NCBI GenBank assembly: GCA_015057665.1
Contig: SVDY01000004.1
Span: forward strand, 1-64,000
Source: Lachnospiraceae bacterium
Lineage (GTDB): Bacteria > Bacillota > Clostridia > Lachnospirales > Lachnospiraceae
Length of the DNA stretch: 64,000 nt
Reading direction: 5' to 3'
In this document: positions 16,251 through 48,361 of the stretch, one piece after another
How positions within the stretch are numbered: the first letter of the stretch is position 1
How the letters are laid out: the number at the start of each line of letters is the position of its first letter
Made by a program: the position numbers and the translations under genes
The notes under the pieces: model-generated
Database searches by the model: none
Seen by the model: the letters and a program-made list of their open reading frames with translations, nothing else
What the model was told of the DNA's origin: nothing

Positions 16251-16278
16251 AGACCAGCGCATAACAAAACGCTGGTCT
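16251..16278 (-). terminator. Terminator of SGNH-dockerin gene 1
   Basis: Stem AGACCAGCG / CGCTGGTCT. The same hairpin, nearly base for base, follows the next two paralogues (20858-20885, 25051-25078). Confidence 0.85.
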
Positions 16279-16313
16279 TCATTCTTACTTAAATTTTATT
16301 ACATTTATAGCTT

Positions 16314-20681: not shown

Positions 20682-20701
20682 AATTACCTCCCATAAAATA
20701 T

Positions 20702-20718
20702 CCGGGATGCTGTCCCGG
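20702..20718 (-). promoter_or_regulatory. 5'-UTR hairpin just before the ribosome site
   Basis: CCGGGA-TGCTG-TCCCGG lies about 10 bases upstream of the GGAGG. An equivalent is at 24894-24910 (gene 2) and a related one at 35593-35609 (gene 5). It may protect the mRNA or tune translation; this is inference. Confidence 0.5.
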
Positions 20719-20744
20719 AATGCAAAATATATACTATCCATAAT

Positions 20745-20773: not shown

Positions 20774-20857
20774 CCGTAATCTTCCGTTTAGCTTGTTTTT
20801 TTTAACACATTTTTATTATGTGTTAACTTTTTAATTAATCCTGCCTATAATAAACAA

Positions 20858-20885
20858 AGACCAGCGCATAACAAAACGCTGGTCT
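20858..20885 (-). terminator. Terminator of SGNH-dockerin gene 2
   Basis: AGACCAGCG / CGCTGGTCT stem followed on the minus strand by TTGTTTATT. Confidence 0.85.
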
Positions 20886-20937
20886 TCTTTCTTACTTTAA
20901 TTTTATTGCATTTTTAAGTTTTATTACATTATAGAAG

Positions 20938-23900
20938 TTATGCTTCCACAGGAAACTTTGTGATCATTTTAATGCAGTACTGTAAGATAAGAACTGCATC
21001 TTTGGAGCTTACTTTGCCATCTGCATTCAGATCACCTACTGTAAGATCCAGTTCGGATGCATCCACAAGACGGATCACGTATCTTAAGATTGCTACCGCG
21101 TCTTTGGAGTTTACTTTGCCGTCTCTGTTCACATCGCCCCAGAGTCTGATGATGTCCATTCTGTCAAGGATCTGATCCTTGATGTATTCATGTCCCTCTG
21201 CTGTTGCGAACTGGGCCTTGATATGGTTTCCGTTCACAAAGTTGAGAAGGAAGAGGTATTCGTTCTTATATTCTGTGTGTTCCGCAAAGGTATCCACATC
21301 TGGTGCATCTACATATACTGTGTCCGGTGTGATCAGGGAGTATGCTGTAAGATGGATGTTTGCAAGTCTTGTGATGTAGTCCACATATTCTCCGATGTTA
21401 ATGTCTGCAAGTTCAAGACCTTCCATTGGGTTGTACAGGCCTACCATGATCACCTGTGCATCTTCTGCAGCAAGTTCATGGATGCGGTTCACAAGTTCAG
21501 GATATTCGAAGGCAAATTCCACGTAATTGTATCCGAGACCTTCCACTACGGATGTCATCATCGGTGCATATTTTGCAAGTGACTCATTAGTACTGAGCTC
21601 TGCTTCCACTTCCGCAAGCTTCTCTTCGATATAAACTACTGCTTCTTCCGGAAGGTATGTGCTCCAGTCATATTCAGGAAGTTCATCTGCTTTTGCAGCA
21701 TCGAGTGCTTCTGTTAACATGGCATTCACACTTAAGCCCACAGTGATGAGATCTGCATCCTTAAGCTCATCTGCATTGTCTTCCACTACTGCAAAGAGGT
21801 CTGCTGTTGTGGCTCCGTCAAGGCCGAGATTTACGTACTGGTCTGCTCTTAATTCCAGTTCTTCCGCAAGTCTTTCTGCATATGGCACTACTGCTTCTTT
21901 TGCGCCTTTGCCTGTCACACTGGAGTCACCGATCGCCACGTATTTGGAGTCTACAGTAGGAATGTATTCTGCAGATACGGCTTCTTCCAGAAGTGCTTCG
22001 ATCTTGGCAATGAGCTCTTCGATGGCTTCGCCAAGTTCTTCTAATTTCTCAAGGATCACTTTCTCTGCTTCTTCAGCGGATTCTCTGATGGCTTCTTCAA
22101 TGAGTCCTCTGATCTGTGCAAGTTCTTCTTCGATCTGTGCCATTGCTTTGGCGATCTCTGCTTTTACTTCTGCTTCTGCTTTTGCATATGCTTCTTCAAG
22201 CTGTTCTTTTACTTCTTCCAGGTAATCGTAAAGTCCAAGGTATTCTGCATAGCGGTCGATCATTGCCCATGTTCTCTCGCCATATGTTTCATACCAGTTC
22301 ACCATGGCCTTTAATACTGTATCCGGATTTTCCATTACGAATTCAAGGATTTCGTCACCGAAAGTATATCCGATGTAACCGATGACCGCAAGGAATGCCT
22401 GATAATGTTCCTCCATGAATGCACCCATGTCGTCGCCATATTCATAGAAGAATCCGACTACCTTGTCAGGATTGTTATAGAACCAGTCATAGAGGTACTG
22501 GTCTGCCACTGGAAGTGCTTCCATAAGGGCTTTTACAAATGCATCAAATGCTTCCTGAGCCTTGTTCATGAGCCATTCTGTGCCCTTCTGGATCGCGATT
22601 GTAAGCTGTTTTACAGCCTGGTCTCTTAATTTGATAAGAGCATCGATGAGGATAGGCATTACATCGTTGTATGTATCAACTGCCGCGATCTCAAGGAGTT
22701 CTGCAACGTCTGTTACGTTTACTAACAATGTATCAAGAAGTGCTAACAGCTCATCTAAGGAAGCCTGATCGAGCTGGTCTGCTTCTAATACTAATTTCTT
22801 CGCCTGTGCGATAGTCTCTCTTGCATTTGCAATGGATTCTTCTAATTTTTCCTTGAATTCTTCTGTGAATTCTTCGGAAAGAGGGATAGCATCCACATCG
22901 ATATCTGCAAGTGCTTTATCTGCTGTATCAAGTCCTTCTACAAGGATATCGATATAGCCGTTTTCTTCTGCATAATCATATGCATAGGCATATGCTTCGT
23001 CGTAGTATTCTGCTACGAGATCAGCAAGGATTTCTGCAGCTTTGATTAAATTTTCAATTGTTACGTCTGTTGCTGTAATATCATTTTCAACAGCATTAAT
23101 CATAGCATCACTTACCTGTTTGTGACCGGCAATACTTGGATGGCAAAGAACACCATCACCAGCTACATAGATAGCGAAAATATTACAAAGACCCTGAAGT
23201 TCAGGTGTGCTCACTAATACATCGTAAATATGATCTGGTGTCACTCCTGCGGACATATCAATACCACTCATGGCTTTCATGACAGTATCCTGAAGACCGC
23301 CTTCTCCCTCTGTTGCAAGAATGATAAATGTTCCAACAGGGAATGTCTGTAAATCAACTGTGTTAAGGAAAGCTTTTTCGATACCCAGGTAACCTACACA
23401 GCTGATGTAGCAAGATGTAATCATATTTGTTACAGCAGCTTGAGGATTAGTATAATTTTCCGCAAGATTCCAGTCGATTTTTGTATCCATATATTTGTTC
23501 TGGAAATAGGCATTAAGTGCTGGCCATTCATTTCTGGAAGATAATTCAGCATATGTATCAACATCTTCTACATCAATAGAAGTTGGATATGCACCTAAAG
23601 CATCACCCATCATACTTAAAATATTACCAACAACGTCTCTTACCATACGACGGCGTGTCATAACAGAAGGAATCTCGTGTTCTTCTGCCATCTGTTCTGC
23701 AAGAAGTTCTACATCTCCTACTTCTGCATAATAAATCTTTGTTGTAAATTCTTCTTCATTTACATAAGCAAGGCCTTCATATAAAGCAGGTAATGCTGCC
23801 ATATATACGTTAACTGCTTCGTATGCATAATCAAGTAATTTTCCAAAAGGAATTGGTTCCATACCTTCGAAAAGTTCAATGTTCATTCCGTTAAGCCAGT

Positions 23901-24873
23901 TGGATAATCCAACAAGAACAATTTGTGCATCCGGATTCACTTTAAGAATATGGTCAATAATTCCTTTGTAAGATACAAGATAGCTTACTGTTGTATAGGC
24001 AGTTGTTTCTGCCATGCCGCCAATAAAATCTGCAACAGTAAGATCTTTTCCTGCGATATCTGCTGGTGCACTATCAGGATGTTTGCCAAGAACATAGTCC
24101 ATTCCGACTCCTCTTGCAGACATTTCTTTCATAAATGCTTCTGAAACTTTTGTCTGAACTTTTGTCGCAATTTCCTTAAGTTCCGGATCAATACCTTCTA
24201 ATAAACCAGGAAGATCAGTGACATCATACATGCTTCCAAACATACTTCCAAAACTAGGAGCCATAGCACCTACATAATAACCGATACGGCGTGTTAAGAA
24301 AGTGGAGAAATTGTTAGATCCTACACCAACACTGATTACATCTGCTTCTGCTACAGATGTCTGGAATGTTTCAGCCAAATCTTTAATCATGGCTTCTCTG
24401 CCACCATTATAAACAGCAGAATTATTCAATGCATAGTATTCCCTAAATCTACTTGGAACATTTCCTACTGTGTAATCATCCGGAACAATTTCATCTTCTG
24501 TTCCGTAAGTTAAAAGGTATAATGTATCATCTGCACGAGTTGCACTAGTAGCAAGCTGAGTTAAATCCACATTACCTTCACCATAAATAGTTTCTAAATA
24601 GCTCTTAAAATTCACAGGATAAGAATTTTCAACTTCCTGCATGTAGCCGTTTACATTTTTGTGTTCGCCATTAACAACCGGTTCATAACCTTCCAGGCCA
24701 TAACCGTTAGTCATAGAATCGCCGAGAGACACATAATTAATTGTCTGCTTATCTTCAGCCTTTGCTGCTTCTACGGCTGCAACACAAAGATTGCCGCTTA
24801 CACCGAGTACCATGGAAAATACCAACAGTAAAGCGACAAAGGAACGCCATGTTTTGTTCAGCATTCTTTTCAT
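20938..24873 (-). CDS. SGNH-hydrolase-like dockerin protein 2
   Basis: 1311 aa from the ATG at 24873 (GGAGGTAATT upstream). Signal peptide 1-37. Head SGNH: GDSMTNGYG (GDS at 51-53), SVGVGSNNF, and His in LCHPSIAGH. The head differs strongly from gene 1 except at signal peptide and motifs, and lacks the LLTAEQV repeats. From about residue 600 on, the stalk, the tail SGNH domain (GDSSVTGKG, GLSVNAM, NGNH) and the dockerin match gene 1 with about 14 substitutions in the stalk and none seen from the tail SGNH domain to the end. The N-terminal 234 residues recur at 8355-9062. It has its own promoter and terminator. Likely a secreted acyl-esterase-like protein; substrate unknown. Confidence 0.85.
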   Translation of the reverse strand: MKRMLNKTWRSFVALLLVFSMVLGVSGNLCVAAVEAAKAEDKQTINYVSLGDSMTNGYGLEGYEPVVNGEHKNVNGYMQEVENSYPVNFKSYLETIYGEGNVDLTQLATSATRADDTLYLLTYGTEDEIVPDDYTVGNVPSRFREYYALNNSAVYNGGREAMIKDLAETFQTSVAEADVISVGVGSNNFSTFLTRRIGYYVGAMAPSFGSMFGSMYDVTDLPGLLEGIDPELKEIATKVQTKVSEAFMKEMSARGVGMDYVLGKHPDSAPADIAGKDLTVADFIGGMAETTAYTTVSYLVSYKGIIDHILKVNPDAQIVLVGLSNWLNGMNIELFEGMEPIPFGKLLDYAYEAVNVYMAALPALYEGLAYVNEEEFTTKIYYAEVGDVELLAEQMAEEHEIPSVMTRRRMVRDVVGNILSMMGDALGAYPTSIDVEDVDTYAELSSRNEWPALNAYFQNKYMDTKIDWNLAENYTNPQAAVTNMITSCYISCVGYLGIEKAFLNTVDLQTFPVGTFIILATEGEGGLQDTVMKAMSGIDMSAGVTPDHIYDVLVSTPELQGLCNIFAIYVAGDGVLCHPSIAGHKQVSDAMINAVENDITATDVTIENLIKAAEILADLVAEYYDEAYAYAYDYAEENGYIDILVEGLDTADKALADIDVDAIPLSEEFTEEFKEKLEESIANARETIAQAKKLVLEADQLDQASLDELLALLDTLLVNVTDVAELLEIAAVDTYNDVMPILIDALIKLRDQAVKQLTIAIQKGTEWLMNKAQEAFDAFVKALMEALPVADQYLYDWFYNNPDKVVGFFYEYGDDMGAFMEEHYQAFLAVIGYIGYTFGDEILEFVMENPDTVLKAMVNWYETYGERTWAMIDRYAEYLGLYDYLEEVKEQLEEAYAKAEAEVKAEIAKAMAQIEEELAQIRGLIEEAIRESAEEAEKVILEKLEELGEAIEELIAKIEALLEEAVSAEYIPTVDSKYVAIGDSSVTGKGAKEAVVPYAERLAEELELRADQYVNLGLDGATTADLFAVVEDNADELKDADLITVGLSVNAMLTEALDAAKADELPEYDWSTYLPEEAVVYIEEKLAEVEAELSTNESLAKYAPMMTSVVEGLGYNYVEFAFEYPELVNRIHELAAEDAQVIMVGLYNPMEGLELADINIGEYVDYITRLANIHLTAYSLITPDTVYVDAPDVDTFAEHTEYKNEYLFLLNFVNGNHIKAQFATAEGHEYIKDQILDRMDIIRLWGDVNRDGKVNSKDAVAILRYVIRLVDASELDLTVGDLNADGKVSSKDAVLILQYCIKMITKFPVEA

Positions 24874-24937
24874 AATTACCTCCATAAAAATATCCGGGGT
24901 GCTGTCCCGGAATGTAAAAAAATACACTGTCCATAAT

Positions 24938-24966
24938 ATTCTAAATAAATTACCAATCTGTGTCAA
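24938..24966 (-). promoter_or_regulatory. Sigma-A promoter of SGNH-dockerin gene 2
   Basis: TTGACA, 17-bp spacer, TAGAAT on the minus strand, near-identical context to 20745-20773. The 5'-UTR hairpin at 24894-24910 follows it. Confidence 0.7.
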
Positions 24967-25050
24967 CCGTGTTCTTCCATTAAACTTAATTTTTTCAACA
25001 TATTTTTATTTTGTGTTAATTTTTTAATTAATCCTGCCTATAACTAAGGA

Positions 25051-25078
25051 AGACCAGCGCATAATAAAACGCTGGTCT
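25051..25078 (-). terminator. Terminator of SGNH-dockerin gene 3
   Basis: AGACCAGCG / CGCTGGTCT stem, third copy of the family terminator. Confidence 0.85.
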
Positions 25079-25114
25079 TCTTTCTTCCTTAAATTTGATT
25101 TTATTTATAATCTT

Positions 25115-28100
25115 TTATGCTTCCACAGGGAACTTTGTGATCATTTTAATGCAGTACTGTAAAATAAGAACTGCATCTTTGGAGCTTACTTTGCCATCTG
25201 CATTGAGATCACCTACTGTAAGATCCAGTTCGGATGCATCCACAAGACGGATCACATATCTTAAGATCGCTACAGCATCTTTGGAGTTTACTTTACCGTC
25301 TCTGTTCACATCGCCCCAGAGTCTGATAATGTCCATTCTGTCAAGGATCTGGTCCTTGATGTATTCATGTCCCTCTGCTGTTGCGAACTGGGCCTTGATA
25401 TGGTTTCCGTTCACAAAGTTGAGAAGGAAGAGGTATTCGTTCTTATATTCTGTGTGTTCCGCAAAGGTATCCACATCCGGTGCATCTACATATACTGTGT
25501 CCGGTGTGATCAGGGAGTATGCTGTAAGGTGGATGTTGGCAAATCTTGTGATGTAGTCCACGTATTCTCCAATGTTGATGTCTGCAAATGTAAGACCTTC
25601 CATTGGATTGTACATGCCTACCAAGATCACCTTAGCATCTTCTGCTGCAAGTGCATGGATACGGTTCACAAGTTCTGGATATTCGAAAGCGAATTCCACG
25701 TAATTGTAACCAAGGCCTTCCACTACAGATGTCATCATCGGTGCGTATTTTGCCATTGTCTCATTGGCAGCAAGTTCTGCTCCCACTTCCGCAAGCTTTT
25801 CTTCGATATAGTGAACTGCTTCTTCCGGAAGGTATCTGCTCCAGTCATATTCAGGAAGTTCATCTGCTTTTGCGGCATTGAGTGCTTCCGTTAACATGGC
25901 ATTTACACTTAAGCCCACTGTGATAAGGTCTGCATCCTTAAGCTCATCTGCATTGTCTTCCACTACTTTGAAGAGGTCTGCTGTTGTGGCTCCGTCAAGG
26001 CCGAGATTTATGTACTGCTCTGCTGTAAGTTCCAGTTCTTCCGCAAGTCTTTCCCCATATGGCACTACTGTTTCTTTTGCGCCTTTTCCTGTCACGCTGG
26101 AATCACCAATCGCCACATATTTGGAGTCTACAGTAGGAATGTATTCTGCAGATACAGCTTCTTCCAGAAGTGCTTCGATCTTGGCAATGAGCTCTTCGAT
26201 GGCTTCGCCAAGTTCTTCTAATTTCTCAAGGATCACTTTCTCTGCTTCTTCCGCGGATTCCTTGATTGCTTCTTCCATAAGTGCTCTGATCTGTGCAAGT
26301 TCTTCTTCGATCTGGGCAATTGCTTTTGCGATTTCTGCTTTTACTGCATCTTCTGCTTTCGCATAAGCTTCTTCAAGCTGTTCTTTTACTTCTTCTAAGT
26401 AATCATAAAGTCCAAGGTATTCTGCATAGCGGTCGATCATATCCCATGTTCTCTCGCCGTAAGTTTCATACCAGTTCACCATAGCCTTTAATACTGTTTC
26501 ATGGTTTTCCATTACAAATTCCAGAACTTCGTCGCCGAATGTGTAACCGATATATGCAAGAACTTTAACGATATTCTCACCGTGTTCTGTCAGGAATTCA
26601 CCCATGATATCGCCGTATTCACAGAAGAATCCGCATACTTTATCAGGATTGCTGTAAAGCCAGTCATAGAGATACTGATCTGCAGCAGGAAGTGCTTCTG
26701 CAAGTACTTTCAAGAACTCGTCATAAGCTTCCTGAACTTTATTCATGAGCCATTCTGTGCCCTTCTGAATCGCGATGTTGAGCTGTTTTTCAGCCTGATC
26801 TCTCAATTTCATAAGAGCATCGATCACGATAGGCATTACATCATTATATGTATCAACTGCAGCAATCTCAAGGAGTTCTGCAACGTCTGTTACATTTACT
26901 AATAATTCATCCAGAAAAACGAGTAACTCATCTAAGGAAGCCTGGTCGAGCTCGTCCGCTTCTAAAACTAATTTCTTCGCCTGGGCGATGGTTTCTCTTG
27001 CATTTGCAATAGATTCTTCTAATTTTCCTTTGAATTCTTCTGTGAATTCTTCGGAAAGAGGGATGGAATCCACATCAATGTCCGCAAGTGCTTTGTCAGC
27101 TGTATCAAGACCTTCTGCGAGTATATCGATATAACCGTTTTCTTCTGCGTAGTCATATGCATAAGCGTATGCTTCGTCATAATATTCTGTAAGAAGTCCG
27201 CCAAGTTTTACAAGTTCTTCAGCGATTTCTTCATTGGCTACTTTCTTACCGCGGATTTCTTCTTCGTAAGCGGTAATAATAGCATCTTTTAACTGCTCAT
27301 GACCGGTCTTGTTTGGATGTGCATAGAAACTGTTACCAAAGCCTGTTCTTACACCCAGACAGAGAACCGATGCAAAAGCAGAATCTTCAAGTAATGTTTC
27401 ATCAAAATGATAATCCGGTACAACGATATTTTCAGGATTAACACTATTCGTACCCAGATAAACTTCCATTGCAGAAGTAAGAACTGTTTCTACACTGGTA
27501 AGGGAGTCAACAAGGATCATCTCCATTGCCTTCTTTTCCGCTTTGCTGTATGCGTCGGAGAACAGTGCTGTGATATCGATTAATTCCTGCTCAGCACCTT
27601 TTTTCATAATTGTTGCAAACACATCGTAAGCTGCATATAACGCCTTTTCATATGCTGCACAGAGATACTTACCGGCTGCAACGGCTGTCTGAACCTGTAC
27701 TGCCATTTCGTTATATAATTCCGGATTTGTTTCTTTGTCAGCTCCATGTACTTCTTCAAATTTTACAAGATACTGATCCCAGCCGTTGTTTTCATTTGTC
27801 TTAAAGAAAGCAAGTAATTCATTAAATTCGTTAAAATATTCCTGAGCTGCCTCACCCATGCTTTCAAGAATTTTTGCCGGGCTTTTTCCTGCTAAAACAG
27901 CATCAATAACAGAAGAATCAATATTGATAGCCGCTTCATTCTCATCTGATGCATCCGGCTTTGCTGCTTCAGGCGCTTCATATAAACCTAACTGGGCTAA
28001 ATCGGTCAATACCTGATTCACATAAGGACTTGCTTTTTTTGCAAAGATCAACTGAATAATCGGTCTGATATTAATATTGTTATCATATACGTCGAAACAG

Positions 28101-29179
28101 TCTCTCATATTGTCATCAAGATGATATGGGTTGCTATCGTAAGCACGAATATCATCTAAGAATGTATCGATATGTCCGTCTTCCCCCGGATAGCCATAAT
28201 AATATCTGTCAGCATATGGAGAAAGACTTGCTGTATAAAGATTTGCCATATTAACCACAGTACCGAAAATGTCGCCCAGTGGGAATTCTCCATCTACAAC
28301 ACCTTCCATGGTAGCGTCCACACCATAGATCATGTTTTGAAGACCTAATACAACGATATTTACATCCGGATTATATTCATAAATCTTCTCTACAACTTTA
28401 TCAAAGCTGATCATAAATCCAGCCAGTGCATATGCTGCAGAATCGATAACGAAGTCAAATTCTGTAAGAATGGCTGCTTCATCTGTACCAATCTTTTCAG
28501 CTACCAGTTCAGTAACATCTTCTTTTACTTCATAATATTTGGCGAGTTCTTCTTCCGTGAATACATTTGTCAAATCGCTTCCATACTTGGTACCGCCAGT
28601 CACAATCTGGTTCATCATATATACACCGAAGTTATTAACACCAATGTCGAGAGAAATAAGATCTGCTTCTGTCACTGCTTTTTTGTAAGCTGCTCTAAGC
28701 TCAGGAAGGCCGCCTTCCTCTGCGTCTTTGAACCAGCCATTGCCATCCTGATTATAAAAACGCCATTCCGTATACTTGTCTCCCATATACTCGTCATCTA
28801 AGAGCATTCTTACCTCTTCTGCACGCATGGAGCTGATTGCAAGCTGCTCTAAATTAACTGACTTTCCAGTTTCTTCAAGAGCTGTTTTCACAAGGTAAGG
28901 ATATGCAGTTTCCGGATGACGTTTGTATCCGTATACGTTTAATGAATCCTTCATAGTAAGTGCTAATAACGGATTCTCATATACATATTCCGGAAGATAG
29001 TAACGCATTCCATATCCATTTGTCTGAGAAGCACCGATGGAAACATAATGAATAGTATCTTCATCTCCAAGGTCGTTCACAGATGCTGCAATTACATTGC
29101 TGCTTACTCCTGTAAGCATACTAAATACTAGGAGCAATGCAACGATGGAACGCAATGTTTTGTGTAACATCTTTTCCAT
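25115..29179 (-). CDS. SGNH-hydrolase-like dockerin protein 3
   Basis: 1354 aa, ATG at 29179 with GGAGGTAT upstream. Signal peptide 1-33. The head SGNH block I reads IGASQTNGYG, so the Asp of GDS is Ala while the Ser stays; block III is LDIGVNNFG; the His block is YAHPNKTGH. The middle holds a low-similarity helical insertion. The stalk is recognisably the same as in genes 1 and 2 but more diverged. The tail SGNH domain (GDSSVTGKG, GLSVNAM, NGNH) and the dockerin (VNSKDAV, VSSKDAV) are nearly the same. It is the older member of the tandem series. Secreted; predicted to dock to a cohesin. Confidence 0.84.
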   Translation of the reverse strand: MEKMLHKTLRSIVALLLVFSMLTGVSSNVIAASVNDLGDEDTIHYVSIGASQTNGYGMRYYLPEYVYENPLLALTMKDSLNVYGYKRHPETAYPYLVKTALEETGKSVNLEQLAISSMRAEEVRMLLDDEYMGDKYTEWRFYNQDGNGWFKDAEEGGLPELRAAYKKAVTEADLISLDIGVNNFGVYMMNQIVTGGTKYGSDLTNVFTEEELAKYYEVKEDVTELVAEKIGTDEAAILTEFDFVIDSAAYALAGFMISFDKVVEKIYEYNPDVNIVVLGLQNMIYGVDATMEGVVDGEFPLGDIFGTVVNMANLYTASLSPYADRYYYGYPGEDGHIDTFLDDIRAYDSNPYHLDDNMRDCFDVYDNNINIRPIIQLIFAKKASPYVNQVLTDLAQLGLYEAPEAAKPDASDENEAAINIDSSVIDAVLAGKSPAKILESMGEAAQEYFNEFNELLAFFKTNENNGWDQYLVKFEEVHGADKETNPELYNEMAVQVQTAVAAGKYLCAAYEKALYAAYDVFATIMKKGAEQELIDITALFSDAYSKAEKKAMEMILVDSLTSVETVLTSAMEVYLGTNSVNPENIVVPDYHFDETLLEDSAFASVLCLGVRTGFGNSFYAHPNKTGHEQLKDAIITAYEEEIRGKKVANEEIAEELVKLGGLLTEYYDEAYAYAYDYAEENGYIDILAEGLDTADKALADIDVDSIPLSEEFTEEFKGKLEESIANARETIAQAKKLVLEADELDQASLDELLVFLDELLVNVTDVAELLEIAAVDTYNDVMPIVIDALMKLRDQAEKQLNIAIQKGTEWLMNKVQEAYDEFLKVLAEALPAADQYLYDWLYSNPDKVCGFFCEYGDIMGEFLTEHGENIVKVLAYIGYTFGDEVLEFVMENHETVLKAMVNWYETYGERTWDMIDRYAEYLGLYDYLEEVKEQLEEAYAKAEDAVKAEIAKAIAQIEEELAQIRALMEEAIKESAEEAEKVILEKLEELGEAIEELIAKIEALLEEAVSAEYIPTVDSKYVAIGDSSVTGKGAKETVVPYGERLAEELELTAEQYINLGLDGATTADLFKVVEDNADELKDADLITVGLSVNAMLTEALNAAKADELPEYDWSRYLPEEAVHYIEEKLAEVGAELAANETMAKYAPMMTSVVEGLGYNYVEFAFEYPELVNRIHALAAEDAKVILVGMYNPMEGLTFADINIGEYVDYITRFANIHLTAYSLITPDTVYVDAPDVDTFAEHTEYKNEYLFLLNFVNGNHIKAQFATAEGHEYIKDQILDRMDIIRLWGDVNRDGKVNSKDAVAILRYVIRLVDASELDLTVGDLNADGKVSSKDAVLILQYCIKMITKFPVEA

Positions 29180-29305: not shown

Positions 29306-32300
29306 TTAACCCGCCACAGGGAACTTTGTGATCAGTTTAATACAATACTGTAAGATAAGTACCGCATCTTTGGAATTCACTTTATCATCTCCGTTCAGAT
29401 CGGCCACCTGAAGATCCAGTTCAGATGCATCTGTAAGATGAACCAGGTATTTCAAAAGTTCTACTGCATCTTTGGAAGTAACTTTACCATCTCTGTTCAC
29501 ATCCCCCCACGTACCGATAATGTCCACAGCATCCAGAATCTGATCCTTAATATACGTATGCCCCTCTTCTGTTGCAAACTGGGCATTAAAATGACTTCCA
29601 TTCACCAGATTCAGCAGAAACAACAAGTTATTGTGATAGGTAATGTGTTTCGCAAAAGTATCTACCTCCGGTGCACTTATAAATAATGTATTGGGTGATA
29701 TTAATGAATAGGCATTTAAATGGATGTTACCAAGTGCTGTGAGATACTCTACATATTCTCCGATGTTAATTCCCTCAAAGGAAAGCCCCTTCATTGGATT
29801 ATGCATACCAATCAGAATAACCTGGGCATCGTCATCCGCATATCCATGAATTTCTTTTACAAGTTCCGGATATTCAAATGCAAATTCCACATAACGATAT
29901 CCAAGTCCTTCCACCAAAGCCACTATCATAGGAACATAGGCTTCCAGCTCCTTGTTGCTGCGCAACTCAAGTTCCAGATTTGATAATTTTTCTTCTACGA
30001 AAAGGACCGCTTCCTCCGGAAGATATTTATTCCAATCATATTCCTGGAGAACGTCTTCTTTCGCAGCTTTGAGTGATTCCACTAACATTGCATTGATGCT
30101 CACTCCAATAGTTATAAGATCAGCATTTTGAATATTATCCGTGTGTTCCTCCACAATTTTAAACAAATCTGCCGTTGTCACACCTTCCTGACCAAGGTCT
30201 ATGAACTGTTCATCTTTAAGTTTTAATTCCTGTGCAAGCTGCTGGGAAAATGTTGTTACTTCTTCTTTCCCCGCAGTTTCTGTAACACTTGCATCCCCAA
30301 TTGAAACATAATGAGAAACTTCTACTTTCACTTCATCTGGTGTATACAGCAGATAGTTTTCCAACATTGTAACCATATTTTTCATAGTCTGTGTCCGGGC
30401 TTCATAGTCACTGGCATAGGATTTCTTCACAGCTTGGAACAAAGCCTCATGCCCCTGTTCCGATGGGACAAGTCCGTATTCTTCGGTAAACATCCATTCT
30501 ATATCAGCAGACTCTGCATAATAGAAAACAGCATTTTGATATAAAGGGTTATTGATCATCTGCATGATGGCTGGCAGAGCCGCCACATATACATTCAATG
30601 GTTCAATAATACTATTTAATACAGAAACAACGGATATATCTGTTTCTGCAAGGTCCGGATAAATATTCTGAGTTTTGGCTGCATCCATATCCATAAGACT
30701 TATCAGAATCAGCTCTGCATCCGGATTCATATGTAAAATTGCCTCTATTGTCTTCGTATAATCAACCAGATAACGGACACTTACATATATTACAGCATCT
30801 GCAAATACTTCTAATTCTGAAATAACAGTCGGGTCTCCATCGTCAATATTCTCACTCAATGATATCTCCAGAATATTGTATAATACAGACAATAACTTTT
30901 GAATCACAGATTGAATCTCCGTTCTGCATTCCGCTATCATGCTTTTCATATCGCTTTCAACCTTATTTATGGTCTGTTCCCTGTTTTGTAACGCATCTGT
31001 CAGATAGGTACTAAAATAGGTGCCAAAGGTATCATTCCCGATTCCCAGAGAAATGGTGTCCGCATTTTTCACCGCGTTCTGATATTCTTCGATCTTTGTC
31101 CCATCCATGTGATTATTATCTGAGTTTGTTTCTATATCTACACTCTCTTCAGCTAACATGCGGTACAGTTCCCCTGCCGTCATCCCGATTCTGGCAAGAG
31201 GCGTATGTACGACAGAAAAACCAGTCTGTTCCTGTAACCATTGTGCAAATCGGTTACTATAAGAAGCATGTCCATAACAATAGCCATCCTCGCTGTCAAC
31301 ATATCCTGGAAGACCTGCACCATCAGACATAGAATCGCCCAAAGAAACATATTGCATTATCTGACCAGACATATTATTGTCTGGAAAAATCGGCTTCTCC
31401 TCTGCTTCCTTATCGTCAGCGCCTGTTGTACATATAATCTTTTTCAAAATCTGCTCCGCAATATATGCATGGCCATTAGCCGTGGCATGGTCATTATGTA
31501 CTCCATTTTCTCCCTGGATATGATTCATATACTCCGCGAATGAAAAGGAAGCCCCTTTTTCAATCACATTGACATAGTTAAATGTTTCAACATCCATTGC
31601 ATCCACAAAAATGGCATTCTCTCTCCTATCGGCACATTCCCTAAGTACTGTATTCACGTAATCAGTAATTCCCTGCATAAGACTGTCTATATCGATTCGA
31701 ACTCCATTATTTTCAATATATACATCCTGCATCGTATTATACAGACCAACAATCACAAGCGATGCATCCGGTGCATATTCACGGATCCGCTCAATAGTTT
31801 TGTCAAAGTACTTTGTAATGTTGTAATAACCATACAACATACATTGAAGCCTTAAAATTGCATAAGTCCTTTCTTCTTCACTGATTCCAGCCAGTTTAAG
31901 CAATTTATCCAAAGATTTCAATTTGTTCTGAAGCTTGTTCAGCTCTGTCTGATTCAGGTAACGTTCCCATTCCACCTGCGGCACTATTCCGGTTTCCTCA
32001 TAATGATTCATAATAAAGGATGCGTAGGTACCTAAACTATTGCCTCCGGCACTAATGGATATGAGATCTGCTCTGGACAGACACTCTGCAAATAATTTTC
32101 TTGTCTGTTCCAACCCTCCTGTGTAACGGTTAAAACTGCTTTCCACGGAATTATATGTATATGCATCTGCCTCAAATGTATCATCCAGAACATACAAAAT
32201 ATCTTCCACTCTTAATCCGCCACAGGCCAATTGTTCGTATTGAGTTTCCGGATCCAGACCAAGACTCTTTGCAACACGATATGGATATGCCTCCGGTACT

Positions 32301-32518
32301 TTTACCCGGTAACCATAATTCCCGTAGCCTTCCAAGCCTAATCCTGTTACCGTAGAATCACCTAAAGAAACATAAAAAGAGTTCTCTGTCACTGTGTACA
32401 ATAATTTCTCATTCTTCTCATCAGTTGCAGGAACAGCGGCTACTGCCGGCAAAGTTATATTGACCAGCATACAGGCAGCAACTATCAACGCTAATAATGA
32501 ATGTATCTTCTTATTCAT
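29306..32518 (-). CDS. SGNH-dockerin protein 4 with three SGNH-like domains
   Basis: 1070 aa, ATG at 32518, AAGGAG 8 bases upstream. Signal peptide 1-28. Three SGNH-type modules follow. Domain A: GDSTVTGLG (GDS 53-55), SAGGNSLG, VHNDHATANGH. Domain B (about 390-700): GDSMSDGAG, GIGNDTFGT, but LVPSEQGH where the His should be, so the catalytic His is Val. Domain C (about 750-990): GDASVTE, so the catalytic Ser is Ala, with SINAM and NGSH. The dockerin has loops DVNRDGKVTSKDAV and DLNGDDKVNSKDAV. The helical stalk of genes 1-3 is absent. Only domain A keeps Ser, Asn and His. Secreted and probably cohesin-docked. Confidence 0.84.
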   Translation of the reverse strand: MNKKIHSLLALIVAACMLVNITLPAVAAVPATDEKNEKLLYTVTENSFYVSLGDSTVTGLGLEGYGNYGYRVKVPEAYPYRVAKSLGLDPETQYEQLACGGLRVEDILYVLDDTFEADAYTYNSVESSFNRYTGGLEQTRKLFAECLSRADLISISAGGNSLGTYASFIMNHYEETGIVPQVEWERYLNQTELNKLQNKLKSLDKLLKLAGISEEERTYAILRLQCMLYGYYNITKYFDKTIERIREYAPDASLVIVGLYNTMQDVYIENNGVRIDIDSLMQGITDYVNTVLRECADRRENAIFVDAMDVETFNYVNVIEKGASFSFAEYMNHIQGENGVHNDHATANGHAYIAEQILKKIICTTGADDKEAEEKPIFPDNNMSGQIMQYVSLGDSMSDGAGLPGYVDSEDGYCYGHASYSNRFAQWLQEQTGFSVVHTPLARIGMTAGELYRMLAEESVDIETNSDNNHMDGTKIEEYQNAVKNADTISLGIGNDTFGTYFSTYLTDALQNREQTINKVESDMKSMIAECRTEIQSVIQKLLSVLYNILEISLSENIDDGDPTVISELEVFADAVIYVSVRYLVDYTKTIEAILHMNPDAELILISLMDMDAAKTQNIYPDLAETDISVVSVLNSIIEPLNVYVAALPAIMQMINNPLYQNAVFYYAESADIEWMFTEEYGLVPSEQGHEALFQAVKKSYASDYEARTQTMKNMVTMLENYLLYTPDEVKVEVSHYVSIGDASVTETAGKEEVTTFSQQLAQELKLKDEQFIDLGQEGVTTADLFKIVEEHTDNIQNADLITIGVSINAMLVESLKAAKEDVLQEYDWNKYLPEEAVLFVEEKLSNLELELRSNKELEAYVPMIVALVEGLGYRYVEFAFEYPELVKEIHGYADDDAQVILIGMHNPMKGLSFEGINIGEYVEYLTALGNIHLNAYSLISPNTLFISAPEVDTFAKHITYHNNLLFLLNLVNGSHFNAQFATEEGHTYIKDQILDAVDIIGTWGDVNRDGKVTSKDAVELLKYLVHLTDASELDLQVADLNGDDKVNSKDAVLILQYCIKLITKFPVAG

Positions 32519-32703: not shown

Positions 32704-32739
32704 CTAAAAAAAGGACGGGATCCTAAAATCCCGCCCTTA
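32704..32739 (-). terminator. Terminator of the SGNH5-cohesin operon
   Basis: AAGGGCGGGAT / ATCCCGTCCTT stem with TTTTTTT on the minus strand, 35 bases after the cohesin stop codon. Confidence 0.9.
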
Positions 32740-32773: not shown

Positions 32774-33535
32774 TTATGCTCTTTTTTTGATAACTACAGC
32801 TGTACCAGCTAATGCAACTAACATGATAACTGCATATGTCATGATTGCTGTGTTGTCGCCTGTGTTAGGAGCTTCTGTCTTAGGAGCTTCTGTTGTAGGA
32901 GCTTCTGTTGTAGGTGCATCTGTTGCAGGAGCTTCTGTTGTAGGTGCATCTGTTGCAGGAGCTTCTGTTGTAGGAGCATCTGTTGCAGGAGCTTCTGTTG
33001 TAGGAGCTTCTGTTGCAGGAGCTTCTGTTGTAGGAGCTTCTGTTGTAGGAGCTTCTGTTGTAGCTTCAGCTACTGTAATTGTAGCAGCTGTAACTACTGC
33101 AGTATGATCTTCAGCTTCGTTGTAGATTTCAGAGAAGCTAGCGTTAACTTTCTGTGCGCCTTCTGCAGTTACTTTGTAAGTAGCAATAAGTAATACGTCC
33201 TGGCCAGCTTTAACTGTTCCATCAACTGCATTTGCATAAATTGCCATAGCTGTGTCAGGGTTAGTGAAAGCCTGACCTGGGTTAGCTTTAACGAAAGAAG
33301 CATTAGCGATATCCATAGAAACTAATTCTAAACCTTCTGTTGCTTCAAGAGTAATTGTGTAAGACATAAGTTTGTCAATACCGGAAGCTTTCACTTCAAC
33401 TGTAACTTCTTCACCAACTTCAGCTGTTGCTTTGGATGGAGCTACTGTAACGTTTGCTGTTGCTGCAAATGCTGTAGATAACATGCATGTTGCAACAAGT
33501 GTAACTGCTGCGATAAAACCTAATAATTTTTTCAT
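32774..33535 (-). CDS. Sortase-anchored single-cohesin surface protein (mini-scaffoldin)
   Basis: 253 aa, ATG at 33535 with AAGGAG 8 bases before. Signal peptide 1-24. Residues about 25-155 look like a type I cohesin: opening NVTVAPSKATAEVGEEVTVE, then a VKASGIDKLMSYTITL strand pair and the closing SEIYNEAEDHTAVVTAATIT, in size and order like the beta-sandwich of scaffoldins. A (TEAPTT/ATDAP)n linker encoded by 15-bp repeats follows, then APNTGD, one membrane helix and KKRA, a sortase-type wall-sorting signal. Cohesins bind dockerins in a Ca-dependent way; seven dockerin proteins lie in this window, and the one at 33559 is 23 bases upstream in the same operon. The protein thus looks like the wall anchor for those clients. 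The cohesin assignment is by pattern and context, not by search. Confidence 0.78.
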   Translation of the reverse strand: MKKLLGFIAAVTLVATCMLSTAFAATANVTVAPSKATAEVGEEVTVEVKASGIDKLMSYTITLEATEGLELVSMDIANASFVKANPGQAFTNPDTAMAIYANAVDGTVKAGQDVLLIATYKVTAEGAQKVNASFSEIYNEAEDHTAVVTAATITVAEATTEAPTTEAPTTEAPATEAPTTEAPATDAPTTEAPATDAPTTEAPATDAPTTEAPTTEAPKTEAPNTGDNTAIMTYAVIMLVALAGTAVVIKKRA

Positions 33536-33558: not shown

Positions 33559-35571
33559 TTAGTTTAAGCCGATAAGAGTTCTTAAAATCTGAACAGCATC
33601 TCTACTGTTTACTTTGCCGTCGCCGTTAACGTCAGCAACTGTAATATCAAATACGTTATTTGGAAGTTTGATAAGATGACGAAGAATAGCTACTGCGTCT
33701 CTGGAGTTTACTTTGCCGTCTTTATTAACGTCACCTAAGAGACCAGCTGGTTCTTCTTCAACTTCTTCAACGAGTACACCAAGGATCTGCTCTTTGATGT
33801 AGTCATGTCCAGCTTCACTTGGGTAGAAACCGTTGATATATTCAACATCCATAAGAAGTTCTACTAAATCGAAGCTGTCTGCTGTTACTTCTACTGCTGG
33901 AGCATCAACATATACTGTGTTCTGTCCAAGGATAGCGTAACCTTTTACATAAGCGTTAGCTGCTACTGTAAGATATTCGAAGTATTCACCAATTGCAAGA
34001 CCTTCGAATTCCATACCTGCAAATGGGTTGTACATACCAACTACAAGTACTGCAGCATCTGCATTGATTGCACGGATATCTGCAACTAAAGCTGGATATG
34101 TAAGAGCAAATTCAACTGTGTTAAATGCAAATCCTTCTACTAAGGATAAAAGAATCGCTGCGATATCAGCATCACCTAATTCTTCTGTTAACGCAAGACC
34201 AAGTTCAGCTAATTCTTCTGCAACTGCTGCTGCAGCTTCTTCGCCAACGAGTTCTGCCCATGCATATGTATCATTTCCTTCAAGAAGATTATTGTATGCA
34301 TCTTCAAGGATACCTGTTGCACTAAGACCAACTGTGATAAGGTCTGCTTTTGCAATTACATCTGCATTGTCAGCTACTGTTGCGAATACATCTGCGATTG
34401 TTGCATCTGCTGCACCAAGGCATTCATATTCAACGCCAAGTTCTTCAGCAACTAATGCGCCGTATTCTTTGCCTTCGCCCCAAGCACTTTCATCACCAAG
34501 TGCTACATAGAAGGAATCTTCGTCTGGTGTATATGGAGCTGTTGTAGCATTTTCATATACTTCTTCCACGAATGCGATTGCTTCTTCGATTGCTTTTTTC
34601 ACTGCTGCGATCGCTTCTTCCACTGCTGTGTTGATAGCGATTACTGTTTCTTTTACTGTGTTGATAGCTTCTTCCACTGCTGCATTGATTGCAACAACTG
34701 TTTCAACTACTTCAGCAACGAATTCCTGAGCGCCGTCAATTGCTGCATTGATTTCAGCAACAGCATCTTCTGTAACAGTGATAGCTGCTGCTACACCGTC
34801 AAGAGCTGCCTGTACTTCTTCCACTGCTGCGTCAAGAGCTGCAAGGTCACCGTTTGCTACTACTTCAACTAAGTTAACAACTGCTTCGTTAAGTGCAACG
34901 ATTGCATCAACTGCAGCTTCTGCAGCTTCGATAGCTGCTTCAACTTTTGCTTTTGCTTCAGTAAGAACTGCTTTTACTCTTTCGAGTTCTGCTTTTACAG
35001 CTTCTTCTGCTGCTTCAAGTTCCGCTTCTACCTTAGCTAATTCTGCTTCGAGTTCGGAAGCAAGTTTCTGAAGTTCAGGAATTACTGTTTCTTCAAGGCA
35101 TGCAAGGATTCCATCTAAATTTTTGATGATGTCTGCTCTTCCGCCTTCGTTGTAATTCTTAGCTGCTTCAAGTGCTGCAAGCGCTTCTGTGATAACCACT
35201 TCATCAACACCATATTCTCTTGCAATTGCAACTGTGTTTTCTACAACATTTTCATCTGTAACAAATGCTACTACTAATGCAGCATATCCTTCAAGTTCTG
35301 GATATTCTTCTAAAAGTGCAGCAAATTCTTCAGATGTGTAAATTGTGTTTAATACATTTGCAGTTGTATCTGCAACTGTATTCTTGAGCTCTTCGTCTGC
35401 ATAGATATCAGCAACGATATCTTCAATCTGGCTCACAATCGCTTCAGCAGATGGCAAATCTGCTGCTTCGTTTTTTGCAGCGAATACTGTTCCGCATGTT
35501 CCAAGTACCATTGTAAGTACAAGTACTAATGCTGTTACAGAACGCCACATGTTGTTCAGCATTTTTTTCAT
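33559..35571 (-). CDS. Coiled-coil dockerin protein 5 with a degenerate SGNH domain, cotranscribed with the cohesin
   Basis: 670 aa from the ATG at 35571 (GGGAGGTTGAGT upstream); earlier in-frame codons have no ribosome site. Signal peptide 1-31. Residues about 100-345 form a low-complexity Ala/Glu/Val helical stalk. The following domain aligns with the tail SGNH domain of genes 1-4 but has lost all three key residues: GDESAWG for GDS, GLSATG where others have GLSVNA, and NGFYPSEAGH with Tyr for His. The dockerin (DVNKDGKVNSRDAV, DVNGDGKVNSRDAV) belongs to the SRDAV subtype of the 466 and 9171 proteins. It is most likely a non-enzymatic structural partner of the cohesin 23 bases downstream. 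Codon use is narrow, as in highly expressed genes. Confidence 0.85.
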   Translation of the reverse strand: MKKMLNNMWRSVTALVLVLTMVLGTCGTVFAAKNEAADLPSAEAIVSQIEDIVADIYADEELKNTVADTTANVLNTIYTSEEFAALLEEYPELEGYAALVVAFVTDENVVENTVAIAREYGVDEVVITEALAALEAAKNYNEGGRADIIKNLDGILACLEETVIPELQKLASELEAELAKVEAELEAAEEAVKAELERVKAVLTEAKAKVEAAIEAAEAAVDAIVALNEAVVNLVEVVANGDLAALDAAVEEVQAALDGVAAAITVTEDAVAEINAAIDGAQEFVAEVVETVVAINAAVEEAINTVKETVIAINTAVEEAIAAVKKAIEEAIAFVEEVYENATTAPYTPDEDSFYVALGDESAWGEGKEYGALVAEELGVEYECLGAADATIADVFATVADNADVIAKADLITVGLSATGILEDAYNNLLEGNDTYAWAELVGEEAAAAVAEELAELGLALTEELGDADIAAILLSLVEGFAFNTVEFALTYPALVADIRAINADAAVLVVGMYNPFAGMEFEGLAIGEYFEYLTVAANAYVKGYAILGQNTVYVDAPAVEVTADSFDLVELLMDVEYINGFYPSEAGHDYIKEQILGVLVEEVEEEPAGLLGDVNKDGKVNSRDAVAILRHLIKLPNNVFDITVADVNGDGKVNSRDAVQILRTLIGLN

Positions 35572-35726
35572 ACTCAACCTCCCTAGATTATGTTGGGGTG
35601 CCATCCCAATTTTTTTGCGACATATGGGCAAAATACTGAGAAACACTCTCTCCCCTCGCCCACAAGGCAGAATGTATCTGCAAGATGACATACTTATGGC
35701 ATAGCAAATCCATTCTTATCTTTTAA

Positions 35727-35755
35727 ATTGTAATCCCTTTCCAATAAAAAGTCAA
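35727..35755 (-). promoter_or_regulatory. Sigma-A promoter of the SGNH5-cohesin operon
   Basis: TTGACT, 17-bp spacer, TACAAT. The leader to the start at 35571 is about 150 bases and includes a hairpin at 35593-35609. Confidence 0.75.
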
Positions 35756-35816: not shown

Positions 35817-35851
35817 AAAGAACAAAATAGGATGGAACTGCTTCCATCCTA
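35817..35851 (-). terminator. Terminator of the acyl-CoA synthetase gene
   Basis: TAGGATGGAA / TTCCATCCTA stem with a 4-base loop, then TTTTGTTCTTTTT on the minus strand. Confidence 0.85.
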
Positions 35852-35872
35852 TCTACATGTTGTATTACGCTC

Positions 35873-37606
35873 TTATTTATCGAGTTTAGTATAATCGAAG
35901 TTTACGTACTCGTCTTCCAATGTACGATAGTCGTTCTTACCCATACCTGTAAGAGGAATCTCATCAATGGAAATAACTGCTACCGGCTTGCCACGTTCTT
36001 CCACATGTTTGTCGCAGTATTCGAAGATTTCCTTACATAATTCATCTCGGTCTACCCCATCTGCAGCTTCGATGATGGTAAGAGGATACTGTCCCTGGCT
36101 GTGGCCGCGGTCGTTGACACCGATGGTTACACAGTTACGTACATAAGCATGCTCGGATACCATGCTTTCTAAGTTTACAGGGAATACTTTGTGTCCGTCA
36201 AAACGTGTGATCATACGTTTTACACGGCCTTTGATGTATACGAAACCATCTTCATCCATGTAACCGATATCACCGGAATGAATCCATACTTGTCCGTCTT
36301 CATGTTCTCTCATGACGTTTGCTGTTTCTTCCGGTCTGTTGAAGTAACCTTTCATTACAGACGGACCTGTCACACATACTTCACCGTGCTGGTTATAGCC
36401 AAGTTCTTCCCCTGTCTCAGGATCAAAGATACCGATGGTTGTTGTAAGAGAAGGAATACCTACACTGAAACGTTTGTATCTGTCATTTACACAGAAGGAT
36501 GCTGCCGCAGATAACTCGGACATGCCATATCCCTGTGCAAGAGGATATTTGATATTATGGTCTTTCATGAACTGATTTAACTTGTTCTCAAGACCTTCGT
36601 TCATGGTATCGCCGCCAGAGCCAAGTGTGATAATGAAGGATAAATCCATGTTTTTCACTTCTTTACTATTCATTAAAAGCTCATAGAAGGCAGGTGTACT
36701 GATCATATGTTCCGGACGGAACTGTTTGATTAATTTACCGAACTGTGTTGGCTCGAATTTTGGAATTGGTACCAGTTCACACCCAAGGCATAATGGCATA
36801 TGCATGCCGCATACCATTCCGTATGTGGAGAATACAGGGATAATTCCAAGGAAACGGTCACCTGGTGTATATACGAGACCACAGTATTTGAAATTGATAA
36901 CTACAGAGTTCATGCTGTCGTTTGTAAGCATAACGCCTTTTGGGAAACCTGTTGTTCCGCCTGTATAAGCAATTGCTACAAGGGCATCTCCAACATATGG
37001 AACTTCTTTGGCTTTTGTATGTTCACCGCCTTTAATAAAGCTCTTCCATCTGATTACTTTTCCGCCGTAATCCACGTCTGCTTTCATCTTTGCTTTCATT
37101 GCAACTTTTGCTACAAATAATAGAGAGTCTGTTGCAGACTGAACAATCACGTGATCCTGTTTGATTGTGTTCATGATCTTACGTACCTTTGGATATGCAA
37201 GGTCAATTGTCACAAGAATTCTGGAGCCGGATTCTTTTACCATGCGGCTGATACTCTTTGTATCCATACGAGGGTCAATCATATTCGCTGCTGCACCAAT
37301 TTTATTCAGGGCATATACAGCAACAATACACTCAGGTACTGCAACGGATAAAAAAGATACGATATCCCCTTTTTTTACACCGAGAGCGACAAATGCATTA
37401 GCTGCTGCATCAATGCGTTTGAACAGTTCTTCCCATGTAATGTTCTTTCCATAATAATGGATCGCTGTATGTTTTAAATGTCCACGATTCTCATACTTTA
37501 AATAAGAATAAATTGTTCTCTTTGGAATCTCCACATGGGCGGATTCCTTTGGAAGGTATTTCATCCACGCTTTTTCCTGTGAAGGTGTTAATTTCTGATT
37601 GGACAT
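35873..37606 (-). CDS. AMP-forming acyl-CoA synthetase / ligase (ANL superfamily)
   Basis: 577 aa. The phosphate-binding motif YTGGTTGFPKG (about 215-225), the QGYGMSE motif and the domain hinge region SGDIGYMDEDGFVYIKGR are present, as is the C-terminal catalytic Lys in TGMGKNDYR. The family activates a carboxylic acid with ATP to an acyl-AMP and passes it to CoA or a carrier protein. The substrate cannot be read from the sequence; long-chain fatty acid or an aromatic acid are possible. Cytoplasmic. It has its own promoter (37704-37731) and terminator. No nearby carrier protein or fatty-acid gene is seen. Confidence 0.88.
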   Translation of the reverse strand: MSNQKLTPSQEKAWMKYLPKESAHVEIPKRTIYSYLKYENRGHLKHTAIHYYGKNITWEELFKRIDAAANAFVALGVKKGDIVSFLSVAVPECIVAVYALNKIGAAANMIDPRMDTKSISRMVKESGSRILVTIDLAYPKVRKIMNTIKQDHVIVQSATDSLLFVAKVAMKAKMKADVDYGGKVIRWKSFIKGGEHTKAKEVPYVGDALVAIAYTGGTTGFPKGVMLTNDSMNSVVINFKYCGLVYTPGDRFLGIIPVFSTYGMVCGMHMPLCLGCELVPIPKFEPTQFGKLIKQFRPEHMISTPAFYELLMNSKEVKNMDLSFIITLGSGGDTMNEGLENKLNQFMKDHNIKYPLAQGYGMSELSAAASFCVNDRYKRFSVGIPSLTTTIGIFDPETGEELGYNQHGEVCVTGPSVMKGYFNRPEETANVMREHEDGQVWIHSGDIGYMDEDGFVYIKGRVKRMITRFDGHKVFPVNLESMVSEHAYVRNCVTIGVNDRGHSQGQYPLTIIEAADGVDRDELCKEIFEYCDKHVEERGKPVAVISIDEIPLTGMGKNDYRTLEDEYVNFDYTKLDK

Positions 37607-47558: not shown

Positions 47559-48361
47559 TAATGAATCACCTTCTCGTCAACAAGCTTTGCCTGAACAACC
47601 CTTCTGCCAGTCTCAGTGTCAGAAGTACAGGTAGAAAGAGTAAGCAGCTTGTCATCTGCTGTTACTGAAACACCCGTATTGTAAATCGCATCTATCTTGG
47701 TGCGTTTTGCAATATAGTTATTAAAACTGTCTTCGGATCCAAATTCCAAAGTATACACATCGCTTGCCGCTTCTGTAATGCTGACGGAGAAAATCTCGTA
47801 TTTGGCGGCCGTATCTTCTTTTATGATCCAGATAAACGGATGGCTTTCCCAATATTCTTTCTTTTCAAACTTTCTAAGAGAGCCGAACATCGTACCGTTT
47901 TTCATATTGTGACCGTGAAGAACCGTATTGTCAGAGTTATAATCTGACTGATTGGCTGCATCCATAAAGATTGCTCCACATGCATTTTTCGTCTTGTCAA
48001 AGGTATGTGTCAGGTAATAGTCATTGTCGCTTCCCTGTACGATGGGATACTGAATCTTTGTATCCGGGATATAAAGCCAGCCAACCAGATCATCGTTCAT
48101 CTCTTTCAAAGCTGCCCAATCTATCACAGGAATAGGCAATGCTTCCTGACTCTCTTCATCCCTGACAACAGCAGTAGTTATCACTTTATCCAGAATCGCC
48201 TCATAGTTCGCTTCTCCTTCCCGGTACTCTATCAGCGCTGAAACAAGCTTCCAGCCGGCCCCTAGAAAAACAGCCAGACATGCTACCAGCATGATATTGA
48301 GAAATGCATTTTTCACTGCGGATTTCTTCCCGGATTTTGGTTCTTTAATTTTAGCCTGCAT
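47558..48361 (-). CDS. srtB: Class B sortase
   Basis: 267 aa with an N-terminal membrane anchor (about 22-42). Catalytic His in LHGHNM, Cys in LSTCTS and Arg in GRRVVQ fit the class B layout, as does the long helix-containing insertion before the Cys. Class B sortases of Clostridia accept PxTG-like signals, so the APNTG of the cohesin protein at 32774 is a plausible substrate; that is inference. No substrate gene lies next to it. The ATG is 3 bases after the upstream stop, with a weak ribosome site (AGAAG), so it relies on coupling. Confidence 0.92.
   Translation of the reverse strand: MQAKIKEPKSGKKSAVKNAFLNIMLVACLAVFLGAGWKLVSALIEYREGEANYEAILDKVITTAVVRDEESQEALPIPVIDWAALKEMNDDLVGWLYIPDTKIQYPIVQGSDNDYYLTHTFDKTKNACGAIFMDAANQSDYNSDNTVLHGHNMKNGTMFGSLRKFEKKEYWESHPFIWIIKEDTAAKYEIFSVSITEAASDVYTLEFGSEDSFNNYIAKRTKIDAIYNTGVSVTADDKLLTLSTCTSDTETGRRVVQAKLVDEKVIH

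Follow-up and report, generated by a model that had tools for sequence, protein, structure and literature searches.

What does a small secreted protein with one predicted cohesin do in a Lachnospiraceae genome in which none of the dockerin proteins is a cellulase? The question is raised by the 64,000-nucleotide stretch of DNA analysed here (the window, part of contig C80 of a 2.73 Mb assembly that is 93% complete), where a cohesin-like gene lies next to a cluster of genes ending in dockerins. In the reading that we consider fairly probable, the protein would be a single-cohesin anchoring scaffoldin that displays dockerin proteins of one motif group, S[RK]DAV, on the bacterium's own surface, without a cellulosome.

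The predicted anchor protein and its operon

The cohesin-protein gene runs from 33535 to 32774 on the minus strand, the plus frame of the same coordinates being full of stops. Its 253-aa product contains a signal peptide (approximately residues 1-24), a cohesin-like domain (approximately 25-155), a Thr/Pro linker of the TTEAPATDAP type (residues 156-222) and, after the linker, the C-terminus EAPNTGDNTAIMTYAVIMLVALAGTAVVIKKRA, in which an APNTGD sortase signal is followed by a transmembrane helix and a KKRA basic tail. The secreted protein of the original prediction, with its cohesin-like domain, Thr/Pro linker and APNTG-membrane-KKRA end, was thus recovered, with the strand corrected to minus. 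The wall anchor claimed for it is supported by two NCBIfam sortase-signal models, both over their cut-offs (NPXTG anchor NF033846, 25.6 vs 23.5 bits; LPXTG anchor TIGR01167, 16.4 vs 15.9 bits), and by eight sortase matches genome-wide, one of them a class B sortase within the window. All marks of a sortase-anchored surface protein (xPxTG, transmembrane helix, basic tail) are present, supporting its description as a putative sortase-anchored wall protein, with the single cohesin and sortase anchor that define ScaE-like anchoring scaffoldins. Elsewhere in the same genome (G000:C73:204831-218998, L136), several sortases and LPXTG proteins form a pilus-like cluster.

32774 to 33535, minus strand: predicted anchoring scaffoldin, 253 aa; signal peptide, single cohesin, linker, sortase signal, transmembrane segment, KKRA
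33559 to 35691, minus strand: operon partner, 710-aa ORF; helical region, SGNH-like module (GDE for GDS), C-terminal dockerin (NSRDAV twice)
32711 to 32738, minus strand: hairpin and T run resembling a terminator, at the end of the dockerin-cohesin operon (pattern match only)
35727 to 35755, minus strand: promoter-like site (TTGACT-17-TACAAT) ahead of the 710-aa gene (pattern match only)
35825 to 35854, minus strand: terminator-like hairpin closing the preceding ligase gene (pattern match)
35873 to 37606, minus strand: acyl-CoA ligase (AMP-binding), upstream of the operon
47558 to 48361, minus strand: class B sortase, a candidate for attaching the cohesin protein to the wall

The cohesin gene lies only 24 nt downstream of the 710-aa dockerin gene, whose likely start is not at 35691 and instead falls at about 35571, where MKKMLNNMWRSV stands behind a GGGAGG ribosome-binding site. 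The short gap and the flanking promoter-like and terminator-like sites point to a two-gene unit, and the two genes are predicted to be co-transcribed; promoter-like sites in the window show no excess over shuffled sequence. No riboswitch was recognised ahead of the 710-aa gene: Rfam had no match in the window at curated cut-offs, and close to the leader of that gene there was only a weak snoRNA match.

This arrangement is conserved in a second genus. In G344, a genome of another genus of the same family, the order is likewise acyl-CoA ligase, SGNH-dockerin protein (1412 aa) and, after 25 nt, a cohesin protein of 335 aa with a Pfam-valid cohesin and an SPNTGD sortase end; the two gaps thus differ by one nucleotide (24 vs 25 nt), and the G344 ligase is 54% identical to the one at 35873-37606. 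The conservation of the ligase beside the operon hints at acyl esters as client substrates, which is a lead only. A close ligase relative is shared with G344 and not with two genomes of the same genus (94 and 89% complete), in which no dockerin was found, and the C-terminal SGNH module occurs in three of 397 family genomes, source genome included. This patchy pattern, present in G344 and absent from the same genus, suggests transfer of the ligase-dockerin-cohesin unit.

Across the family, cohesins over cut-off occur in 128 of the 397 genomes, and dockerins likewise in 128. Among the matches listed, which cover 75 dockerin-bearing genomes, a dockerin domain is followed on the same strand within 1.5 kb by a cohesin domain in at least 35 cases from 32 genomes, with a gap of 49-239 nt in 33 of these 35 pairs; the reverse order is rarer (eight cases among the matches listed). 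Many pairs consist of an SH3/cadherin-like dockerin protein, in some cases with a weak sub-threshold glucosaminidase match, followed by a cohesin-cadherin-like protein with a C-terminal membrane helix. Adjacent genes of this kind were recorded at L113, L115, L116, L117, L119 and L135 of the family genomes, and in several of those genomes the adjacent pair is the only dockerin and cohesin found. These stereotyped pairs suggest that the window operon belongs to a broader dockerin-then-cohesin type, of which it looks like a member turned hub, and their occurrence in many family genomes is the more general lead. A literature search of incomplete coverage found no description of the SGNH set or of cell-wall-hydrolase pairs. 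Taken as one joint proposition, plausible if somewhat short of probable, Lachnospiraceae would widely carry undescribed private anchor operons in which a dockerin surface protein comes first (often SH3/cadherin-like with weak glucosaminidase similarity, here SGNH), its own membrane- or wall-anchored cohesin follows about 10-30 nt later, and each operon places one enzyme on the cell's own wall, unrelated to fibre breakdown, the window pair having grown into a hub of about 11 clients with an adaptor tier.

Dockerin proteins and their likely pairing

The seven window genes originally listed as ending in a dockerin (466, 9171, 16314, 20938, 25115, 29306 and 33559) all match Dockerin_1 at their ends with 36-52 bits, far over the Pfam cut-off of 22.9. 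Besides the operon partner, the cluster contains six candidate clients and a truncated copy.

29306 to 32518, minus strand: 1070 aa; two SGNH domains and a third, C-terminal SGNH-like module (GDA), dockerin
25115 to 29179, minus strand: 1354 aa; N-terminal SGNH-like head, helical region, C-terminal SGNH module, dockerin
20938 to 24966, minus strand: 1342 aa; layout as in 25115, 3' half with 94.5% DNA identity to 16314
16314 to 20741, minus strand: 1475 aa; layout as in 25115
9171 to 14054, minus strand: 1627 aa; transglutaminase-like core, BspA-type LRR_5, Cys repeats, dockerin
8355 to 9062, minus strand: 235 aa; truncated SGNH-head copy of 20938 without dockerin, 98.6% DNA identity to 24170-24883
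466 to 3819, minus strand: 1117 aa; tandem Cys-rich repeats, EEPTT linker, dockerin

Pfam, module identity and fold agree with the SGNH-esterase-like, transglutaminase-like and Cys-repeat labels that the original prediction had given to these proteins. GDSL/SGNH matches (PF13472/PF00657) were found by Pfam in four window clients, three over cut-off and one, 25115, at 31.8 vs 32.9. The label of 33559 comes from 41-47% identity to the C-terminal module of the other four and from a fold predicted at low confidence, for which the top three PDB matches are GDSL-type esterases/lipase; this model, which covers the C-terminal SGNH module and the dockerin, is poor past residue 194. Protein 9171 matches Transglut_core (62 bits) and LRR_5 (157 bits), and 466 shows only Cys-rich repeats apart from its dockerin. 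The GDS block of the C-terminal SGNH module is kept in 16314, 20938 and 25115 and reads GDA in 29306 and GDE in 33559. Catalysis by this module is therefore doubtful in two of the five copies, and in some clients, with the catalytic Ser lost, its role may be structural or one of binding.

The genes 16314, 20938 and 25115 are 88-95% identical in DNA over their 3' halves and differ in their N-terminal SGNH heads, tandem copies with diverging 5' heads lying at 16238-18452, 20847-23076 and 25050-27189. By its sequence, the array can be described as one chassis, made up of helical region, SGNH module and dockerin, that is repeated behind different heads. Transposase genes of the IS4 and IS200/IS605 families are located inside the dockerin cluster at 14280-16107, and downstream of the cluster (4085-8247) an MMPL-family exporter gene and a gene for a secreted Leu-x-x-Gly heptad-repeat protein overlap by a few bases.

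Genome-wide, the set comprises 12 dockerin proteins (seven in the window and five others), all over the PF00404 cut-off, and three cohesin proteins with one cohesin each, the search having returned two PF00963 matches, both single-cohesin proteins, and one paralogue missed by Pfam.

C80:68889-79103, just past the window: 3404 aa; subtilase-LRR_5-Big_2, dockerin
Contig C58: 725 aa; dockerin, without other Pfam domains
Contig C81: 635 aa; Glucosaminidase domain over cut-off, dockerin
Contig C10: 1522 aa; PQQ/cadherin-like, dockerin
Contig C10: 380 aa; cohesin-dockerin protein
Contig C10: 245 aa; membrane end, gene adjoining the 380-aa gene, N-terminal domain missed by Pfam

The original prediction, which had itself proposed a genome search for further cohesins, thus needs amendment in several respects. 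Two more cohesins were found on contig C10, so that its single cohesin holds for the window and not for the genome, and its "minimal" system fits the single-cohesin anchor and not a total of 12 dockerin proteins. The absence of glycoside hydrolases among the clients stands for the window and fails genome-wide, because the C81 client carries a glucosaminidase domain, the sole glycoside hydrolase domain among the 12. The claim of non-cellulase clients is upheld: Pfam detected no cellulase, hemicellulase, amylase, xylanase or mucinase domain in any of the 12 dockerin proteins. No protein with several cohesins was found in the 93% complete genome.

The second cohesin-dockerin locus (G000:C10:281-26193; L008, L009) adjoins an ECF-type ABC transporter and has a DUF4430 lipoprotein and a squalene-cyclase-like lipoprotein among its neighbours. 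DUF4430 and the squalene-cyclase-like fold recall transcobalamin and intrinsic factor, and corrinoid capture would be our guess for this locus.

The dockerins are type-I-like, with the CelS dockerin as best PDB match and the two calcium-binding repeats of type I dockerins (PF00404), with N for D at position 5 in some repeats. The recognition positions read S-[RK]-D-A-V in 11 of 12, the odd one being the 1522-aa C10 protein (DIGDAN/DISDAN). The C10 cohesins are alike (39% identity between the 245-aa and 380-aa proteins over the cohesin) and unlike that of the window. The most economical pairing would join the S[RK]DAV dockerins to the window cohesin and DIGDAN to the C10 cohesins, with the caveat that the two C10 cohesins could take some of the other dockerins. 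One of the three cohesin proteins itself bears a dockerin, so a two-tier layout is possible; if that pairing holds, the 380-aa protein, which combines a cohesin of the C10 type with an S[RK]DAV dockerin, would serve as an adaptor comparable to ScaC of R. flavefaciens (PMC5301203).

The main rival is a private one-to-one pairing, in which the window cohesin binds the dockerin of its operon partner only, with the C10 cohesins, or others yet to be found, holding the remaining dockerin proteins. One-to-one adjacent pairs are indeed common in the family sample, G344 has three separate pairs with dockerin motifs of their own (GRDS, NSTDAM and TSLD), and the S[RK]DAV dockerins of the present genome split into two sub-groups. 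However, the residues NSRDAVAILR of the 710-aa dockerin are almost exactly common to five others (466, 9171, C58, C81 and C80:68889), with K for R in the SGNH array, and the mutually similar C10 cohesins share their locus with the odd DIGDAN/DISDAN dockerin, so we regard exclusive pairing as unlikely, if still a serious competitor.

The cohesin assignment

The Pfam evidence that domain 25-155 is a cohesin is sub-threshold. The profile check originally proposed gave a match of PF00963 to residues 30-143 (E 4.7e-4), at a score of 20.8 bits that lies under the gathering cut-off of 24.1. With a profile built from the other cohesins of the family, the window domain left out, the domain scored 21.9 bits against a maximum of 13.6 in 2000 residue-shuffled copies, none of which reached 21.9. 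Comparison by hhalign with a 16-sequence profile of family cohesins gave E 3.2e-5 at a probability of 72%, not above 90%. That profile matches 43 PDB sequences, including C. perfringens NagJ and R. bromii Amy4, which from their records we take to be cohesins or cohesin-bearing proteins, several being filed, like these two, under parent names. Together, hhalign and the shuffles indicate homology to accepted cohesins.

A single-sequence AlphaFold2 model made without an alignment predicts a nine-strand sandwich (pLDDT 68.6, pTM 0.65), consistent at moderate confidence with the cohesin jelly-roll fold. Type I-III cohesins make up most of the best PDB matches of this model (E 2e-5 to 7e-4, TM about 0.5-0.6), with members from C. 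cellulolyticum, C. acetobutylicum, Acetivibrio, R. flavefaciens ScaB and ScaC, and Archaeoglobus; one of the outcomes that would have refuted the original prediction, a lack of structural match to cohesins, thus did not occur. The top single match is the CLIPPER domain of an adhesin, and other Ig-like beta-sandwiches match too; given this and TM values of only about 0.5-0.6, the fold match is support, not proof. Direct BLASTP to a G344 cohesin gave an uncorrected score of 38.5 bits (131 aa), which composition correction reduced to 24.6 bits (28 aa), and the match is therefore not counted toward close kinship. In a whole-protein search of genome contigs, nearly all of 62 loci matched the Thr/Pro linker and not the cohesin; a single-sequence search of the 397 family genomes gave five weak matches beyond the source genome itself, and no relative was found among viral contigs and no close cohesin relative in the same-genus genomes.

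That domain 25-155 is instead an Ig-like adhesin or spacer merely resembling a cohesin and lying by chance 3' of a dockerin gene seems very unlikely: its sequence is compositionally simple, its Pfam score is sub-threshold and its best fold match is the CLIPPER adhesin, but cohesins make up most of the high-scoring fold matches, profile comparison favours a cohesin, the G344 gene at the same place encodes a Pfam cohesin and the dockerin-then-cohesin order is stereotyped across the family. Fold, profile comparison, shuffles and gene position agree, and the predicted cohesin identity is well supported. Membership of an ordinary cellulosome, amylosome or mucinolysome, with a multi-cohesin scaffoldin and glycosidases elsewhere, would account for cohesin and dockerin modules of the same families and is rejected as extremely improbable, since the 93% complete genome yielded neither such a scaffoldin nor a dockerin-bearing cellulase or hemicellulase, and none of the 12 dockerin proteins has an amylase, xylanase or mucinase domain.

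Proposed mechanism and known systems

In the favoured reading, that of a single-cohesin anchor serving the S[RK]DAV group, we infer binding, cohesin-dockerin matching, anchoring and function from the features described above. One operon would supply both the 253-aa scaffoldin, which a sortase would fix to peptidoglycan, and its first client, the SGNH-like dockerin protein of 710 aa, and calcium-dependent cohesin-dockerin binding would hold this client at the cell surface. The remaining S[RK]DAV dockerin proteins (11 of 12 in the genome carry this motif) would probably be held too, one at a time. The 380-aa C10 protein could plug into the anchor and offer a different cohesin, creating a second tier. 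The clients suggest roles other than cellulose breakdown, namely adhesion, remodelling of the surface and hydrolysis of esters or lipids; since none of the dockerin proteins is a cellulase, plug-and-socket parts of the cellulosome seem here to dress a gut-type bacterium's own surface. If this is right, the cohesin-dockerin pair would be a general means of attaching proteins to the Gram-positive surface, of which the cellulosome is one elaborate instance, and the operon layout would provide a simple rule for predicting cohesin-dockerin pairs in gut bacteria without a cellulosome. The genome supplies a small testable set, three cohesins and 12 dockerins, for specificity mapping.

Among the closest known systems is Ruminococcus flavefaciens ScaE, whose one cohesin sits on a sortase (LPXTG) anchor and binds several group-4 dockerin proteins, including a peptidase (PMC5301203). 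Like ScaE, the window protein combines a single cohesin and a predicted sortase anchor with several candidate dockerin partners. R. flavefaciens FD-1 also has five head-to-tail transglutaminase-like/LRR dockerin proteins of group 4b, with conserved C-termini and variable N-termini (PMC2930009), the same anatomy as the SGNH array in the window, and the authors suggest that some group-4 interactions may structure the cell surface (PMC2930009). However, a whole cellulosome is attached to ScaE by way of the ScaB XDoc, and most R. flavefaciens modules are of type III (PMC5301203, PMC2930009), whereas no multi-cohesin scaffoldin or dockerin-bearing cellulase was found in the present genome, and the dockerins here are type-I-like, Pfam reporting no X module. 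The window scaffoldin may be said to work like ScaE, by analogy, and is not filed as an ScaE orthologue.

Among gut Clostridia, sortase-anchored cohesins with non-cellulase clients are also known from the Limousia mucinolysome (cSca5; PMC12997984), which docks peptidases as well (PMC12997984), and from the R. bromii amylosome (Sca2/Sca5; PMC5814915). Both of these systems serve glycan-degrading complexes with many glycosidases, whereas the present set comprises SGNH, transglutaminase and subtilase proteins and one glucosaminidase. The class of single-cohesin proteins of unknown function (PMC11557425) shares with the window protein one cohesin in a small protein, but that survey concerns cellulosome producers and its text does not mention Lachnospiraceae. 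The cohesin-dockerin complexes of Clostridium perfringens (X82 modules), as described in PMC12997984, are likewise used outside cellulosomes; there the cohesins sit within glycoside hydrolases, in contrast to the non-catalytic predicted wall anchor described here. Thus, ScaE with group-4 dockerins, the amylosome and the mucinolysome are already known, and what is new is an ScaE-like single-cohesin anchor, as predicted here, without a cellulosome.
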